Assembly (NCBI RefSeq): GCF_029433335.1
Contig: NZ_JAQTHX010000001.1
Coordinates: 1,612,001 to 1,676,000 of the forward strand
Length of the DNA stretch: 64,000 nt
Reading direction: 5' to 3'
Source of the DNA: Bifidobacterium sp. ESL0745
GTDB taxonomy: Bacteria; Actinomycetota; Actinomycetes; Actinomycetales; Bifidobacteriaceae
Shown: positions 32,314 to 58,393 of the stretch, one piece after another
Position numbering within the stretch: the first letter of the stretch is position 1
How the letters are laid out: the number at the start of each line of letters is the position of its first letter
Program-made: the position numbers and the translations under genes
The notes under the pieces: model-generated
The model's database searches: none
What the model saw: the letters and a program-made list of their open reading frames with translations, nothing else
What the model was told of the DNA's origin: nothing

Positions 32314-32901
32314 TCAGCGTGAAAGATAGGGATTACCGGCGACGACGAAGCGTCGCGGGCGGTCCTTGGCCTTGCTGATACCAATGCGCTGTGTTGTTTC
32401 AATGTGTTCGCAGGAGCGCAGGGAGCCAGTTTCGAGGCTCAGCGGCGGCTTGCGCAGGTCGTGGCCGTAGAGGTCCATGGTGATGCCAAGCGACTTGCAG
32501 ATCTTGCCGGGTCCGTTGAGGCAGTCCTTGATACGCCGGCCACCGCGACGCTTTTCGATGATTTCGACGGTTCTGCTGTCCATCGGTTCGGCGGCGCGAA
32601 TCAGCGCGCCCGCGCCGAAGCCTTCCTCGAACGCGGTGACGTTCATGCAAAGGTTCATGCCGTAAACCAAATAAATGTAGGCATGACCGGACGGGCCGAA
32701 CATTGCGCGGTTGCGCTCGCTTTTGCCATGGAAGGTGTGACTCGCCGGGTCAAGCTGGTCGTAGGCCTCGGTTTCCACGATGCGCACAGTCAGCGTTTCG
32801 CCGTCAATCTCACGGATCAATAGACAGCCGAGAAGCCCTTGCGCCACGGTTTCGGCGTCCTCACTCAAAAAATCAGGGAACATGGTTCCATTGAAGCCCA
32901 T
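32314..32901 (-). CDS. 3-methyladenine DNA glycosylase (AAG/MPG family)
   Basis: A 195-residue DNA repair enzyme that excises alkylated purines. Family signatures: AETVAQGLLGCLLIREIDG, the catalytic-Glu region RIVETEAYDQLDPASH, GKSERNRAMFGPSGHAYIYLVYGM, CMNVTAF and LNGPGKICKSLGI. I placed the start at the ATG at 32901 (MGFNGTMFPDF). A further ATG at 32883 is also possible, and neither has a strong ribosome site. A longer frame to 32997 would run into the palindromic repeat element and is rejected. The gene converges with the YwiC-like gene, only 10 bases away. Confidence 0.9.
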   Translation of the reverse strand: MGFNGTMFPDFLSEDAETVAQGLLGCLLIREIDGETLTVRIVETEAYDQLDPASHTFHGKSERNRAMFGPSGHAYIYLVYGMNLCMNVTAFEEGFGAGALIRAAEPMDSRTVEIIEKRRGGRRIKDCLNGPGKICKSLGITMDLYGHDLRKPPLSLETGSLRSCEHIETTQRIGISKAKDRPRRFVVAGNPYLSR

Positions 32902-32933
32902 CCCCAAGAATTCAAAAGTCGCGGTATCGCCCC

Positions 32934-33085
32934 TTCTTGGCGCGCCAAGAACCCCGAAAAACGGCAAATTGTCCTTCAATCTTCGAAAAATGGCCAACTT
33001 GGCGCGCCAAGAACCCCTATTTTGGGCATATTAAGCATGAATCTCCCGAAAACGGGCCTCTTGGCGCGCCTACATACCCCAAAAA
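32934..33085. repeat. 62-bp phased palindrome element, copy A
   Basis: Three GGCGCGCC cores at 32939, 33001 and 33063 (exactly 62 bp apart). The first is TTCTTGGCGCGCCAAGAA (18-bp perfect palindrome), the second CTTGGCGCGCCAAG, the third has only the left arm intact. Between cores 2 and 3, TTTTGGG and CCCGAAAA form a dyad centred at 33035.5, exactly halfway. Between cores 1 and 2 the midway dyad is weak (ATTG/CAAT near 32974). It lies 3' of the mevalonate-pathway fusion gene and 5' of the glycosylase gene. Confidence 0.95.
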
Positions 33086-33153
33086 TTAAGAATTAATGAA
33101 ATGGATGATTCGGAACTTTTCAAAGCGAATGACACACACCGGATTGTGGCAGG

Positions 33154-35772
33154 TTATTGACGTCGCGCAAGCGCTGACAAGTCGACACCCAGCAGATGTG
33201 CCTCTTCGGCGGTTTTGCCGGTGACCAGCAGATCCGTGCCGCGCAAATCGGCGACGGTTTTCGCACCAAGCAAGGCCATCAGCGAACGCACCTGAGCCTT
33301 CCAACCGTTGATTTCGACGGTCAGCCCGGCTTCTCCGGAGGCGCTCAGCACTTGCAGGAAGTGACCGGAGACACCGACAGCCTGTGCGCCCAACGCGAGC
33401 GACTTGACCACGTCAAGCGGGTTGCGCACACCACCGGACGCGAGTACGGTAACGTCGATTCCGTTGGAACAATTCTGTCTGCGGTCGGTTTCATTCGCGC
33501 TATCCGCACGCAAACCAGCACCGGCAGCGTCAAGTCGCTTGGCGCCATTTGCGCTTCCACTGGAACAAGATGCAAAGTCGCGAGAGCTATTAACGTTTTC
33601 TGCATTACACTTTTCAGGTATCAATGAAAGCAAGCACAACGCCGTGGACTGGCCCCAACCGGCCATGTAACTGTACTCGTGACCTGCGCGCCGCGCGTTC
33701 TCGATACGCGCGAAATCAGTGCCGCCCCTGCCGCTGACGTCGACCGTGCGAACGCCCAACTCGGCCAACTGTCCTACGGTTCGCGCGCTCATGCCGAAGC
33801 CGACTTCCTTGACCATCACCGGCACCGGCGAAGCCTTGACGATGGCGGCGATGCGAGACGGCCACGCCTCAAAATCGCGCGACCCCTCAGGCATCACCAG
33901 CTCCTGGGCGGCATTGATGTGGATCTGCAATGCATCAGCGCCAATCATCTTGACGGCCTGCAGCGCGTCTTCAACGCTCGCCGACAGCCCGACATTGGCA
34001 AAAACGAAGCCAGACGGATTATGCTCACGGATTGTGGTGAACGTTGGTTCAAGTTTGGAATTACGAATGGCGACGGATTGTGATCCTGCGGCCATGGTCA
34101 AACCGGTCGAGGCAGCGACACGTGCGAACGCAGCGTTGATAGCTCCGGTTTTGGTTGATCCGCCCGTCATCGCGTTGATGTAGAACGGCACGTCCCATTT
34201 TGCGTCGCAGACTTCGGTGGACATGTCCACTTCGACTACATCGACGCTGCCCAAGCTGTGATGGACGAAAGCGAGGTCGTCAAAAGCGTTGCGTTGCTCG
34301 TCGCCGTGTTCGGCGAGCGCAAGACGCACGTGGTCGTTCTTGCGGTTCGATCCGGCCCCGGAAACCCGCGAATCTTCGTTGAAAATGTGGCCTGCCACGG
34401 CGTTCGAGAGCGGCAGATTCTGCGTTCCCGAACCGTCGACACCGGCACCGCGAAAACCAGCGATACCAGCACCGTCAACGTCATTGACACCGCGGGTACG
34501 AGGGATATCGGCGATACCATCAATGCCAGTGGCCTCGCCACCGCCAACCCGTTCCGAAAAATTTCCTTCGGTGCGCATGCTTTCGGCAATTCCGCCGAAC
34601 ATGTCCGGAATGGTACCCGTCCAATCGGCCAGCTCGACCTGTGGATCATGGACCGATAAATCCAGCGGAACGATGCTTTTCTCCTGCCAACCGCGCGTAA
34701 CGGCGTCGCAATCGGCGGTCGGTCCGGCAATTGCGATGCCGCAGTCGCCGCCGCCCGCACCGGAACTTTTTGCCGCGGCACCATGGCTTTCGGCCACTTC
34801 GACCAAATCACGTAAGGCTGGCGTTTCGATGACCACGCCCGTAAATGACGACAGGTCCTGCAACAGCTTGCGTGCCTCACGCACGCGGGCGATGACGGCC
34901 TGCTCGTCGTTACCGATCAAGGCTTGCGCCAAGGCATCCACACAGGCATCGCTGCCGTTAAGAAAGTCCTGATACATCCGCTCGTGTTCGGCGGCGCTTT
35001 GCTGCTGGACATGGCCTACCAGCGAGGGCGTGGAGGCGGGGTTGCCGGTCCATCCGACCATCAGGCGCAGACTGGATCCATCCCCGAACGTCTGAAGCCG
35101 CGCGATACTCAATCCCGGCCACGGCATGTCAATCAGGTCGCTCAACGCAGTATCCTGCAGGCGATTGGTGACCCACTGCCGGTCAACCGCCGTGAAGCGG
35201 ATGCAGCCGCCGAACAGGCTTGCCGCCAAATCGCCACCGGAACCGACCTTCTGTGCTCGGCTGGCCGAGACGAACGCCAGTTTGTATTGCTGCATCGGGT
35301 CAAGTTCAAGGCCATAGAAGGCCGTCAGCGCCTTCATCATCGCCACCGTCACCGCGGCCGACGAGCCCAGGCCGTACTTGCGCCCGGAGGCGTCGTCAAG
35401 TTCGCTTTCGATGTTAACGTCGTAGATTTTGAGGTCCTTGCCTTGCTGCTGGGCCAATTCCTCAACCGCGTGGATGACGGAAAGAACGAACGCGGCGCCC
35501 GGCTGCTCCACATCGGGCACCGCACGTCCCGCACGACGCCGCCATGTAACCGATGCCTCAGGATGACCTGCGGAATGGATACGGCCGACCGGATCGACAC
35601 CAAAAGTCTGGGGTTGTTCGTGCTCGGTGATGCGAGCAGTCAACAGACGGTTGACGGCAACGAGAATCGCGGGGTGGCCGTGCTCGACTACGGCATATTC
35701 GCCGGCGATATAAAGCTTTCCAGGAGCCGTTGCCACGCTGCTTTTCGGTTCCTGGGCCTGCTTATCGCTCAT
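33154..35772 (-). CDS. Fusion of phosphomevalonate kinase and type 2 IPP isomerase
   Basis: An 872-residue bifunctional enzyme of the mevalonate route to isoprenoids. Residues 1-385 are a GHMP kinase: APGKLYIAGEYAVVEHGHPAI, the ATP loop KYGLGSSAAVTVA (132-144) and the C-terminal AAKSSGAGGGDCGIA (333-347), as in phosphomevalonate kinase. A Gly/Asp-rich linker (about 385-475) leads to a type 2 (FMN-dependent) isopentenyl-diphosphate isomerase from RKNDHVRLALAEH (477) to the end, with FYINAMTGGS, AAGSQSVAIR, QIHINAAQE, VKEVGFGMS, DVSGRGGTDFARIE and LASGGVRNPLD. An insertion of about 50 residues (718-772) is unusual for this family. No internal stop or frameshift is present, and the stretch between the domains lacks a ribosome site. 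Other mevalonate genes are not in this window. Confidence 0.9.
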   Translation of the reverse strand: MSDKQAQEPKSSVATAPGKLYIAGEYAVVEHGHPAILVAVNRLLTARITEHEQPQTFGVDPVGRIHSAGHPEASVTWRRRAGRAVPDVEQPGAAFVLSVIHAVEELAQQQGKDLKIYDVNIESELDDASGRKYGLGSSAAVTVAMMKALTAFYGLELDPMQQYKLAFVSASRAQKVGSGGDLAASLFGGCIRFTAVDRQWVTNRLQDTALSDLIDMPWPGLSIARLQTFGDGSSLRLMVGWTGNPASTPSLVGHVQQQSAAEHERMYQDFLNGSDACVDALAQALIGNDEQAVIARVREARKLLQDLSSFTGVVIETPALRDLVEVAESHGAAAKSSGAGGGDCGIAIAGPTADCDAVTRGWQEKSIVPLDLSVHDPQVELADWTGTIPDMFGGIAESMRTEGNFSERVGGGEATGIDGIADIPRTRGVNDVDGAGIAGFRGAGVDGSGTQNLPLSNAVAGHIFNEDSRVSGAGSNRKNDHVRLALAEHGDEQRNAFDDLAFVHHSLGSVDVVEVDMSTEVCDAKWDVPFYINAMTGGSTKTGAINAAFARVAASTGLTMAAGSQSVAIRNSKLEPTFTTIREHNPSGFVFANVGLSASVEDALQAVKMIGADALQIHINAAQELVMPEGSRDFEAWPSRIAAIVKASPVPVMVKEVGFGMSARTVGQLAELGVRTVDVSGRGGTDFARIENARRAGHEYSYMAGWGQSTALCLLSLIPEKCNAENVNSSRDFASCSSGSANGAKRLDAAGAGLRADSANETDRRQNCSNGIDVTVLASGGVRNPLDVVKSLALGAQAVGVSGHFLQVLSASGEAGLTVEINGWKAQVRSLMALLGAKTVADLRGTDLLVTGKTAEEAHLLGVDLSALARRQ

Positions 35773-41522: not shown

Positions 41523-41654
41523 ATTTTCTTATTCCTCCCAATGAATTATTGAATGCTGGTATCAATGATAATGGAGGCGGTGCCATCATGGATGCCGTAT
41601 CACATCCCCGTTGCGCTTCTTTCTTACATTCACCGCCCATTCTCCATTTTTAAG

Positions 41655-41822
41655 ATCTGTTGGCGCGCCAAGAACCCCAAAAAATCCAAAATGATGCCCA
41701 ATTCTTCGGAAAAAGGGGGTACTTGGCGCGCCAAGAAGCCCGAAAACCGAAGATTAGAGGGTAAATCTTCAAAAAATGAACCTCTTGACGCGCCAAGAGG
41801 TTCTAAAAAGCGAGATTTACCG
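41655..41822. repeat. 62-bp phased palindrome element, copy B
   Basis: Cores at 41662 (GGCGCGCC), 41725 (GGCGCGCC) and 41787 (GACGCGCC) are spaced 63 and 62 bp. The second core is CTTGGCGCGCCAAG, perfect. Midway dyads are ACCCC/GGGGT centred at 41697 and GAAGATT/AATCTTC centred at 41759.5, the exact midpoints. It lies 3' of the PEBP gene and 5' of pepD, both leftward. Confidence 0.95.
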
Positions 41823-41863: not shown

Positions 41864-42421
41864 CTACTTTGCCGGATTGCCGATGAAAGTGATCTCGGCG
41901 TCGTCGATGGGGCCGCCGTAGGCAAGAATCTTATGATACAAATCGTTGAGCCAGAAGCCTTGACGCATGTCCGGCAGCGGGTCGACGGTAGCCCAGACGT
42001 GCAGCACGTAGCCATGTGGCTTGTCGGGCGGAGTCGGACCGTTGTATCGCATCGTCACCGCTGGATTGCTCGAACCCACGAACTTGCTGGCGGCGCTGGT
42101 ACGTCCCTGCGCGGACTCGGGAATCATCGTCGGCAGTGTGCGCGAGAAGTCCGGCGGAATCTGCAGGGCGTGCGAATCGTTGAAATCGAACATCAGCGCG
42201 TCGATCGGCACGTTGGCCGACGACCAGTGAATCCATTCGAAACCGCAGACGGGAATCGAGTCAGGGTCGGTCAGCTGCCAGTGCAGATAATGCATGTTCG
42301 CCTGCACCTCGTCGATGTAGAAGGGGAACGAGACGATCGGCGTGCCGTCGACCTTGTATTCGGGTGCCGCAGCCCCGGTGAAATCGTCGGGAATAGTCGT
42401 AAAATCTGCTGAAATCTTCAT
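41864..42421 (-). CDS. PEBP-family protein (YbhB/YbcL-like)
   Basis: A 185-residue phosphatidylethanolamine-binding-fold protein. The family core is visible: SFPFYIDEVQANMHYLHWQL as the ligand strand region, FEWIHWSSANVP (equivalent to the D-P-D/GxFxHW motif), PDFSRTLPTMIPESAQGRTS, GPTPPDKPHGYVLHVWATV (the GPxPP.. HRY signature). The ligand and role are unknown; bacterial members are cytoplasmic and some inhibit kinases or proteases. The ribosome site is weak. It is likely transcribed with holB upstream, 150 bases away. Confidence 0.88.
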   Translation of the reverse strand: MKISADFTTIPDDFTGAAAPEYKVDGTPIVSFPFYIDEVQANMHYLHWQLTDPDSIPVCGFEWIHWSSANVPIDALMFDFNDSHALQIPPDFSRTLPTMIPESAQGRTSAASKFVGSSNPAVTMRYNGPTPPDKPHGYVLHVWATVDPLPDMRQGFWLNDLYHKILAYGGPIDDAEITFIGNPAK

Positions 42422-56187: not shown

Positions 56188-56661
56188 ATGACCGATACGT
56201 CGGACGGGCGGCCGGAGAACTACGGGCGCCTGCTGCAGCAGTCCTCGAGCGCGATGTCTCAGCAGCTCGGGCGGTTCGCGGCGCGTTACGGGCTCACCGA
56301 AGTGCAGATGTCCGTCATCAACTTCATGAGCTCACAACCGGGCGGTGAAGTAGCCCAACACGCCATCGAAGAGGAATTCCACATCCAACGATCCACCGTT
56401 ACCGTCACCTTGCAACGCATGGAGGCCCGCGGATTGCTCACACGAGAACAGGCACCTGACGACGCCCGTCGCAAAACCGTAAAACTCACTCTGCGCGCCA
56501 AGCAGAGTATCGATGCCATCCACGGCTATATCGACAACGAGCAACGCGAGTTCGAGCGCCGCTTCTCCCCCGCGCAGATCGCCGAGTTCAAGGAAATGCT
56601 GGCATTTTTCGCCCGCACACGCGACGACGATCCCGGAATCGAACTAGCGCCTCCTCGGTAA
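56188..56661 (+). CDS. MarR-family transcriptional regulator
   Basis: A 157-residue winged-helix regulator. The DNA-binding region is EEEFHIQRSTVTVTLQRMEARG followed by the wing LTREQAPDDARRKTVKLTLRA, with flanking dimerisation helices. The ATG at 56188 follows GAGAAGGCAAGAAGA. A palindromic operator lies upstream, and the MFS exporter downstream on the same strand is the likely target, in the usual marR-exporter arrangement. The ligand is unknown. Confidence 0.88.
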   Translation: MTDTSDGRPENYGRLLQQSSSAMSQQLGRFAARYGLTEVQMSVINFMSSQPGGEVAQHAIEEEFHIQRSTVTVTLQRMEARGLLTREQAPDDARRKTVKLTLRAKQSIDAIHGYIDNEQREFERRFSPAQIAEFKEMLAFFARTRDDDPGIELAPPR

Positions 56662-56754
56662 TCGCGATAGCGCTATTTACTCCAGATAATCATTGCCCCA
56701 ACGTAAAGCCAGAATCATGCGACACCATACTTATCCATCATAAATCCGCGTAAT

Positions 56755-56905
56755 TTGTACTTCTTGGCGCGCAAAGAGACCCATTTTTGGAAGAATTGCC
56801 TACATATCTTCCAAAATCAGCGGTCTTGGCGCACCAAGAGGCCCAAAAAATGAAGATTGAGAGCCAAATCATCAAAATTCGACCCTCTTGGCGCGCCAAG
56901 TTGTA
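56755..56905. repeat. 62-bp phased palindrome element, copy C
   Basis: Cores at 56767 (GGCGCGCA), 56829 (GGCGCACC) and 56891 (GGCGCGCC) are exactly 62 bp apart; the third is flanked by CTT and AAG. Midway dyads are TTTTGGAAGA (56786-56795) with TCTTCCAAAA (56808-56817), 10 bp perfect, centred at 56801.5, and GA-GATT/AATC-TC centred at 56863.5. Both centres are exact midpoints. It lies between marR and the MFS gene, both rightward. Confidence 0.95.
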
Positions 56906-56965
56906 TCAAATCAGCACTTTGGGCAACAACATAACATTCAATACAAATCAAGAAAGTCACTATTT

Positions 56966-58393
56966 ATGACATCGAATACGCAAACTACAATGCAATCAAC
57001 GGCTGCCGCGCAACCACAACGGCAATCCGAGAAAATCCCGGGCAAAGTCTTCGGCGCCATCATCGCGGCCGGCCTGCTCTCGCTGAGCGGCGTGACCGTC
57101 GAAACCGCCATGAACGTCACCTTCCCGACGCTGATGAAGGAATTCGGCATCAACACCGAAACCGTGCAGTGGGTGACGACGGCCAATCTGCTCACCATCG
57201 CCATCGTCGTGCCCTTAAGCGCCATGCTCAAGGCTCGCTTCCGCACCAAGTCGCTCTTCATCGTGGCGAACCTTTCGTTCCTCGCCGGCCTCATCATCGA
57301 GATCTTCACGCCTAACTTCGCGCTGCTCGTGACCGGCCGCGTCATCCAGGGCATCGGCGCCGGCATCGCGCTGCCGCTGATGTTCAACATCATTCTCGAA
57401 ACCGTTCCACCTCAGAAAATCGGCCTGATGATGGGCTTCGGCACCTTGCTCACCGCAGTGGCCCCGGCCATCGGCCCAACCTTCGGCGGCATCGTCGTCT
57501 CGAACACGAGCTGGCGCGTCATCTTCGCGTGCCTGCTGCCGGTCGTGCTCATTTCGCTCGTGCTCGGCATCGCCTGCATCCAGCAGAAGAGCAAAATCCG
57601 TGACGTCAAATTTGACATTTTGAGCATCGCCCTTATCGCCATCACCTTCGCCGGCCTCATCTTCGGATTCAGTTCCATGACCACCAAGCCGATCATCAGC
57701 CTGCAGGTGGGCGGCGCCATCGTCGTCGGCATCATCGCCCTTGTGCTCTTCTGCATGCGCCAGCTCAAGATCGACGCCCCGATCATCGACATCCGCACCT
57801 TGAAGAACCTGCGCTTCTCCGGCTTTGTCATTGCGTTCTTCCTGCTGCAGGCCATTTCGTTGAGCCTGTCGTTCGTACTGCCGAACTATCTGCAGCTGGC
57901 CGACCACTCCTCGCCGCTGATCGCCGGCCTCACCCTGCTGCCGGGCGCGGCGCTGGGTGCCGTCCTTGCGCTGCTCGGCGGTCGCGTCTATGACGCCGTC
58001 GGTCCGAAGCCGCCGCTGATCCTCGGCGGCACCTGCGCCATCATCGCGGTGTTGTGCTTCTTCATCTTCGGTCACCATCTAAGCAGCGGCGCAGCAGCCG
58101 GCATCTACCTGCTTTACATGTTCGGCATCGGCCTGAGCTCCGGCAACATCATGACCACCGGGCTCTCGCACCTGAGCACCCATCAGCAAAGCATGGGCAA
58201 CGCCATCTTCAACACCGCCCAGCAGTTCGCAGGCGCGGTCGGCACCTCCATCGCCGCCGCCATCCTCGCCGCCGGTCAGGCCGCCACCTCCGATATTGCC
58301 GTGGGCACAGCGAACGGTGCGACGATGGCCTTCGGCGTGCTGCTTGTCGCCCTCGTCATTGAATTCGTTGACATCCTCCGCTCGCTGTTCTAA
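56966..58393 (+). CDS. MFS multidrug exporter, DHA2-like
   Basis: A 475-residue 14-helix transporter. Helix 1 reads LSGVTVETAMNVTFPTLMKEFG and helix 5 carries APAIGPTFGGIVVSNTSWR, DHA2-family motifs. I chose the ATG at 56966 (MTSNTQTTMQSTAAAQPQRQ). A longer frame to 56888 would be read through palindrome element C and is rejected. The ribosome site is weak. It is paralogous to the exporter at 21582-23000. Its position behind marR suggests induction by the exported compound. Confidence 0.86.
   Translation: MTSNTQTTMQSTAAAQPQRQSEKIPGKVFGAIIAAGLLSLSGVTVETAMNVTFPTLMKEFGINTETVQWVTTANLLTIAIVVPLSAMLKARFRTKSLFIVANLSFLAGLIIEIFTPNFALLVTGRVIQGIGAGIALPLMFNIILETVPPQKIGLMMGFGTLLTAVAPAIGPTFGGIVVSNTSWRVIFACLLPVVLISLVLGIACIQQKSKIRDVKFDILSIALIAITFAGLIFGFSSMTTKPIISLQVGGAIVVGIIALVLFCMRQLKIDAPIIDIRTLKNLRFSGFVIAFFLLQAISLSLSFVLPNYLQLADHSSPLIAGLTLLPGAALGAVLALLGGRVYDAVGPKPPLILGGTCAIIAVLCFFIFGHHLSSGAAAGIYLLYMFGIGLSSGNIMTTGLSHLSTHQQSMGNAIFNTAQQFAGAVGTSIAAAILAAGQAATSDIAVGTANGATMAFGVLLVALVIEFVDILRSLF

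Follow-up and report, generated by a model that had tools for sequence, protein, structure and literature searches.

Helically phased palindromic arrays in bifidobacterial chromosomes as putative docking sites for a DNA-wrapping protein

Repeated or helically periodic DNA sites on which proteins assemble have been described in several bacterial systems. The nearest functional parallel to the arrays considered here appears to lie in the sites of Noc and SlmA. Excerpts of PMC4726725 describe the Noc sites of Bacillus subtilis (NBS) as 14-bp palindromes present in ∼70 copies per genome, and the SlmA sites of Escherichia coli (SBS) as chromosome-wide palindromes numbering 24–52 per genome, both under-represented in the terminus region. 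With respect to the design of the DNA, the nearest parallel is probably the gyrase motif of E. coli. In the portions of PMC6379681 used here, this motif spans ∼130 bp, with a 36-bp centre between periodic flanks and a 10.75-bp GC periodicity read as wrapping on the GyrA C-terminal domains; intergenic BIME-2 elements contain more than their share of gyrase cleavage sites. Among operators, Lrp-type wrapping seems nearest, as exemplified by BarR (Lrp/AsnC family), for which an extract of PMC10201364 reports at least three semipalindromic sites at whole-turn spacing, with DNA wrapped on an octamer.

The arrays occur in a window of 64,000 nucleotides of Bifidobacterium sp. ESL0745 (NZ_JAQTHX010000001.1, positions 1,612,001 to 1,676,000), the term window designating this whole stretch. 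Like the Noc and SlmA sites, they are dispersed, with at least 22–25 per chromosome in the three complete genomes. Few of those counted lie near the terminus, although this bias is modest. Unlike the Noc and SlmA sites, they are bounded ensembles, usually of three or four phased modules, in which the A/T flanks are periodic and the end modules specialised. They share with the gyrase motif a helically periodic GC pattern, a 10.33-bp harmonic dominating the 62-bp unit and being repeated through the array, but differ from this motif and from BIME-2 by a near-invariant 14-bp core every 62 bp, by a periodicity extending over the whole unit and by their presence in few species. Unlike BarR-type arrays, they are found at 29 locus groups, in carriers in which no Lrp/AsnC protein was found.

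The initial annotation of the window knew of no described repeat of this design in bifidobacteria, and none was found in the literature searched. Bifidobacterium never occurs there together with TTGGCGCGCCAA, nor with GGCGCGCC plus ‘palindrom’. The titles and abstract openings of the matches listed on repeats, wrapping, nucleoid occlusion and chromosome organisation mention no such array, and a term search finds no mention of Bifidobacterium in the main text of the REP survey PMC12306157. The ‘62 bp’ of PMC5746004 is, in the part of the text concerned, a promoter window and not an array repeat. The element family is real, conserved and, as far as the literature searched shows, undescribed. Each array is probably, with appreciable room for doubt, a docking platform on which a single dedicated protein recognises the sequence and bends or wraps the DNA, and may serve as a landmark of the chromosome.

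Arrays in the window and among bifidobacterial genomes

The three arrays placed in the window by the initial annotation are all found at their positions, with three cores each (32937/32999/33061 in array A, 41660/41723/41785 in array B and 56764/56826/56888 in array C; Table 1). The 33 bases given between array A and the glycosylase start are correct for the ATG at 32901; the cores of array A are in place, but the conserved element is longer than the 32934–33085 first proposed and spans ∼32915–33094, because it reaches 22 bp past the outer cores (family average).

Table 1. Arrays, cores and flanking genes in the window
Feature	Position	Strand	Remarks
Array A, three modules	32915..33094	.	conserved footprint including both outer 22-bp arms (family average)
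Core A1, CTTGGCGCGCCAAG	32936..32949	.	
Core A2, CTTGGCGCGCCAAG	32998..33011	.	
Core A3, CTTGGCGCGCCTAC	33060..33073	.	one base altered within the 12-base core
Array B, three modules and outer arms	41638..41818	.	
Core B1, GTTGGCGCGCCAAG	41659..41672	.	outermost base G, commoner in end cores than in other cores
Core B2, CTTGGCGCGCCAAG	41722..41735	.	
Core B3, CTTGACGCGCCAAG	41784..41797	.	
Array C, three modules and outer arms	56742..56921	.	
Core C1, CTTGGCGCGCAAAG	56763..56776	.	
Core C2, CTTGGCGCACCAAG	56825..56838	.	
Core C3, CTTGGCGCGCCAAG	56887..56900	.	
A flank, methylpurine-DNA glycosylase (PF02245)	32314..32901	-	domain scan from inner ATG 32883; start 32901 from sequence
A flank, GHMP kinase / FMN-dependent dehydrogenase fusion	33154..35772	-	
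B flank, peptidase family C69	39906..41522	-	
B flank, phosphatidylethanolamine-binding-protein family	41864..42421	-	
C flank, MarR-family regulator	56188..56661	+	locus group with an array in all five carriers
C flank, MFS transporter	56966..58393	+	start taken from sequence

The proposal that these arrays belong to a family of 62-bp phased palindromes is borne out by many further copies, both in the same genome and in relatives. In the window's own genome (G000, 2.36 Mb in 7 contigs), 17 pairs of GGCGCGCC occur at array spacing vs 0 with a reversed-pattern control, and a looser two-core pattern has 43 matches on the forward and 41 on the reverse strand vs 0 and 0, well in excess of chance. 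CTTGGCGCGCCAAG with up to 2 mismatches is matched 85 times per strand vs 10 in the control. Since 75 of these 85 sites sit inside the 24 arrays found in the genome and the 10 outside equal the control level, isolated cores are not above background.

The two-core patterns were run on 199 genomes and on 112 genomes of the genus. Arrays are carried by five genomes, namely G000, G050, G055, G029 and G094, and a sixth, G095, has one two-core array; the remaining 106 of the 112 Bifidobacterium genomes show no array by the patterns used, all of which require TTGG and CCAA half-sites, so that arrays of another core type would escape. Among the 199 genomes, a single two-core match in G018, on one strand only, is taken as chance, and the odd-core pattern applied to the 112 genomes matches G094 alone. 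A three-core scan covering 84,980 species, each represented by one genome, returned 39 stretches, nine of which belong to Bifidobacterium sp. B-bin1 (= G050) while the other 30 are, by eye, unrelated tandem or coding repeats, and five viral stretches from such a scan are, also by eye, not array-type; both the genome-contig and the viral scans may omit records very close to the window's genome.

With even and odd cores admitted, the census comprises at least 113 arrays, at least 112 of them in the five carriers: at least 24 in G000, 25 in G055, 22 in G029, 22 in G094 and 19 in the draft G050, and one in G095, which is a lower bound as the regions of G029, G094 and G050 were taken from the matches listed. 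One G094 entry (position 393743, mismatches 3/1/3) is excluded as false from later counts. Most of the 113 arrays have three cores (77), 26 have four and one has five, up to 3 mismatches being allowed within an array; the nine two-core arrays are found in G050 (eight) and G095 (one). A profile built from 83 intervals gives 134 matches in G000, 134 in G055, 112 in G029, 121 in G094, 103 in G050 and 6 in G095, both strands and partial matches being counted. In the eight array-free members of the same clade it gives 0–2 matches each (one in G002, E 0.007; two in G025, best E 1.5e-4). Simple decay would have been expected to leave more remnants, a point that weighs against the docking-platform reading. 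The lone array of G095 (C1:2193908, L146) has perfect cores and no other array was found in that genome; it could be either a relic or an imported segment.

Anatomy of the modules and of the array ends

Successive cores are separated by 62.0, 62.5 or 63.0 bp, corresponding to six helical turns, in 236 of the 247 intervals (60–64.5 bp admitted; the two intervals of the false G094 entry are included in this count). The unit repeated along an array is a symmetric module of ∼56 bp with the core at its centre. Its symmetrised consensus consists of CTTGGYGCRCCAAG followed by a G/C-rich stretch, 4–5 A/T letters and RAGAWT, mirrored on the other side; around the core GGYGCRCC, steps that are restricted to A or T, on either strand, recur about once per helical turn (10.33 bp). 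In the A/T profile of the 62-bp unit the sixth harmonic is dominant, with 1.398 of a summed power of 3.94, and the interior power at 10.33 bp amounts to 1.44 per unit vs 0.238 ± 0.025 in letter shuffles. Beyond the end cores the A/T profile runs to about base 22 and then drops to ∼0.5 (157 non-redundant of 224 flanks). Helical A/T phasing of this kind is typical of DNA that a protein bends or wraps around itself.

The 10.33-bp periodicity is similar to that of the E. coli gyrase motif as given in the consulted portions of PMC6379681, so that the arrays might be preferred wrapping sites of DNA gyrase and a functional analogue of E. coli BIME-2. There is only a slim chance of this: gyrase is a general enzyme, yet of the 112 Bifidobacterium genomes five are carriers and a sixth has one array, and a nearly invariant 14-bp core per 62 bp is foreign to the degenerate gyrase motif.

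The space between the cores was interpreted otherwise in the initial annotation, which described a second dyad midway between cores in five of the six intervals, with arms of different sequence that still pair, and deduced long hairpins running from one palindrome to the next and excluding each other at the middle core. The arms listed are visible by eye, and the one dyad centre that was worked out, that of GAAGATT/AATCTTC in array B (41759.5), is the exact midpoint of its two cores. The compensation of the arms does not withstand comparison across the family: in 83 non-redundant 62-bp intervals a covariation test, run in two ways other than R-scape, detects none. The two halves of an interval form on average 9.67 of 24 Watson-Crick pairs with each other vs 10.55 (sd 2.85) for halves of different intervals, and the A/T tracts pair below expectation (z −3.4, −2.8 and −2.6) because they tend to share one strand and are then unable to pair. 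The folding energies of real and chimeric intervals are −31.08 vs −30.70 kcal/mol (p 0.17), −33.29 vs −33.03 kcal/mol on the other strand (p 0.31) and −6.56 vs −7.18 kcal/mol for the interiors alone (p 0.84). The mid-dyad corresponds to the abutting arms of neighbouring ∼56-bp modules, since the conserved arm sequence also stands alone, with no partner, outside the terminal cores. An RNA- or cruciform-based element with mutually exclusive hairpins could draw on the long hairpins that are possible in several intervals and on the strong RNA folding predicted for all three arrays of the window (z −4.0 to −6.7, either strand), but near-identical palindromes give such folding anyway. With compensation absent in both tests, unpaired outer arms conserved and no Rfam match in the window at gathering thresholds, an element of this kind is highly improbable.

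The ends of the arrays are specialised. The outermost base is G in 24 of 113 left end cores and C in 24 of 113 right end cores, vs 8 of 245 on either side in the other cores, orthologous arrays being counted separately in these and the following end-core figures. Odd-length end cores are found in G029 and G094, and three in G055. They are mirror-oriented, with a central C in 17, G in 5 and another base in 3 on the left side, and a central G in 19, C in 7 and another base in 2 on the right; in the three-core arrays of G029 and G094 (n = 34) the middle core is even in 33. The odd core TTGGTGSCACCAA itself measures 13 bp, with a centre that is nearly always C or G, and is located mostly at mirror-oriented array ends, as in L130:4014-4152, an example of the G029 and G094 type. 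The KorB operator of plasmid RK2 is a 13-bp palindrome with a central S base and resembles these odd cores; unlike KorB sites, the arrays have another half-site and are built of phased modules, and no carrier-specific ParB-family protein was found.

Even cores also fall into types, CG-type in G050 (45 of 55) and TA-type in G029 (44 of 46) and G094 (43 of 43), G055 being mixed. In the latter genome the two half-changed cores, GGTGCGCC and GGCGCACC, are unevenly shared between the replichores, TG being found 12 times and CA 5 times on one arm, and TG 7 times and CA 21 times on the other, which is consistent with the effect of leading-strand C-to-T mutation.

Conservation, ancestry and gene context

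Grouping by flanking genes assigns the arrays to 29 locus groups, a few of which have two neighbouring arrays per genome; 28 groups are common to at least two genomes and 10 to all five carriers. In 174 orthologous interval comparisons (identity 0.72–0.995), the fixed core positions are 98.5% identical, the A/T positions 89.9%, other interior positions 68.8% and the Y/R positions 61.8%. Changes between A and T account for 207 of 247 changes at A/T positions vs 234 of 1847 elsewhere, a contrast partly built in, as the A/T positions were picked from the same units, and drawn from overlapping comparisons of non-independent pairs. This pattern of conservation points to purifying selection on the arrays.

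A mobile or amplified repeat of REP, MITE or CRISPR-like type, devoid of host function, would also be repetitive, intergenic and patchy among species, and the module number does differ between orthologous arrays. The sharing of 28 of the 29 locus groups between species means, however, that there is no sign of recent movement, and the core and A/T positions are conserved. Array A has no match in plasmid and phage records, and the viral stretches mentioned above are, by eye, not array-type. As for a CRISPR-like nature, the intervals share one consensus with nearly fixed A/T positions, and the repeat is symmetric. A repeat of any of these kinds is thus quite improbable.

A TrmD tree, built from the 30 best-matching of the 112 genomes, places the carriers, G095 and eight array-free species in one clade (100/99). 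The carriers are not one group within this clade, 3–5 changes being required in bootstraps of a called-gene tree in which 1 of 11 inner branches is well supported; a first multi-gene tree contained antisense frames, and its repeat with called genes resolves less. Because the carriers do not form one clade, the array system must have been lost, or moved, several times. The shared loci in turn indicate one origin with repeated wholesale loss, or exchange, a history that fits dependence on a trans-acting factor. The presence of arrays is nearly all-or-nothing by genome among close relatives.

With genes called by script, 87 of the 113 arrays lie between co-directional genes, 18 between divergent and 8 between convergent genes; 6 of the 113 have a footprint that runs into a called gene, start calls being approximate. 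By locus group the figures are 22, 4 and 3 (n = 29). The long spacers at these loci show a similar mix (co-directional 282, divergent 90, convergent 64). Of ∼46 distinct proteins flanking the arrays of G000, 36 were profiled; of the 30 compared with NCBIfam, 6 remained unmatched at 1e-20. Among the matches that exceed the curated cut-off are metK, tig, thyA, radA, gpsA, gltX, leuA, leuB, dapB, dapE, O-acetylhomoserine sulfhydrylase and an Rne/Rng ribonuclease. The profiled flanks span repair, translation, lipid, nucleotide, folding and transport functions, with no single pathway. Five of these genes, leuA, leuB, dapB, dapE and that of O-acetylhomoserine sulfhydrylase, adjoin arrays at L110, L111, L114, L120 and L121; an enrichment in amino acid biosynthesis at the array flanks is possible, and a regulon would explain it.

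The arrays could accordingly be viewed as operators of a global transcription factor binding cooperatively to three or four phased sites upstream of regulated genes. The sites are palindromic and intergenic, with 22 of 29 locus groups co-directional and 4 divergent, several amino acid genes adjoin them, and a MarR gene does so at a locus group occupied in all five carriers. Nevertheless, 3 of the 29 groups are convergent, the orientation mix resembles that of all long spacers of those loci, and the 36 profiled flanking proteins of G000 reveal no single pathway. At the putative pncB locus of G055 the array sits, by eye, between the stop codon and a terminator-like hairpin, a position that also speaks against an operator; in the non-carriers G048 and G015 the hairpin stands there alone, with no array (by eye). 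Operator arrays are on these grounds unlikely, though they deserve to be kept in mind, and a role as chromosome landmark is more likely than one as metabolic operator.

The rimM-trmD spacer is ∼36–234 bp long in seven of eight array-free relatives, the matches being 3.3 kb apart in G054. In G048 and G002 this spacer (L215 and L216) has, by eye, an apparent intrinsic terminator hairpin where carriers have an array.

Chromosome position and putative function

Positions were expressed on the three complete chromosomes (G055, G029 and G094) as the fraction of the way from the origin, set at dnaA, to the antipode. Beyond 0.75 of this distance lie 0 of 25 arrays in G055, 1 of 22 in G029 and 1 of 22 in G094, that is 2 of 69 overall. 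Comparison with a uniform distribution gives KS p values of 0.034, 0.027 and 0.028 for the three genomes, which share loci so that the tests are non-independent. The largest gap between arrays includes the antipode in all three, with maximum-gap p values of 0.004, 0.18 and 0.010. The null of these statistics ignores where long spacers lie, and further arrays could shift them, the census coming partly from the matches listed. The terminus bias of the arrays is modest. A strict exclusion from the terminus, suggested by a first census that missed odd cores, is contradicted by the full census, where an array of G029, at 855 kb, is close to the antipode (0.92).

Taken with the anatomy of the modules, these features suggest how a dedicated protein could use the arrays. 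It would read the core (CTTGGYGCRCCAAG) in the major groove, while the A/T-only steps ∼5, 16 and 26 bp on either side of the module centre would present the minor groove to it once per turn, so that ∼56 bp would be bent or wrapped per module. As modules lie six turns apart, three or four bound protein units would be found on one face of the DNA and would touch each other, possibly binding cooperatively. The result would be a bounded, roughly mirror-symmetric nucleoprotein body of ∼180–240 bp, capped by the specialised end modules. The likeliest use of such a body would be to mark the chromosome, whether for organising the nucleoid, for segregation or for the timing of division. This is suggested by the location of the arrays among housekeeping genes that are for the most part unrelated and in any orientation, by positions kept across species, by a presence that is close to all-or-none from genome to genome and by the scarcity of arrays around the terminus of replication.

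A more specific version, which is possible but on balance doubtful, is a lineage-restricted system of chromosome marking, in which the putative wrapping protein on about two dozen mostly three-module arrays away from the terminus would report position to division or segregation. This would amount to a nucleoid-occlusion-like system in an actinobacterium, relying on phased arrays instead of single sites.

A regular, apparently selected and locus-stable repeat implies a strong and so far undescribed DNA-binding activity in a genus that includes probiotics. Should they serve to organise or time the chromosome, the arrays would open up bifidobacterial cell biology; the titles and abstract openings of the matches listed in the bifidobacterial chromosome-organisation literature mention no such factor. 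They would also provide a natural case of DNA whose sequence is arranged to suit helical wrapping.

The search for a candidate binding protein covered Lrp and an extra ParB, neither of which is supported, and identified none. A binder of the Lrp/AsnC family finds no support in the profile PF01037, which has 0 matches in all five carriers; two of the 14 genomes of the clade do match it, but these, G025 and G034, are array-free. Unlike the Noc system, the carriers have no carrier-specific ParB_N paralogue that could be found: ParB_N has 2–3 matches per carrier, as in most of the 112 genomes, and the best match of each of the five lies within ∼10 kb of dnaA. TetR proteins are many per genome. The near all-or-nothing presence of arrays among close relatives provides a ready comparative screen for the binding protein. 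In the window itself, the MarR-family gene next to array C may be a bystander or a candidate.
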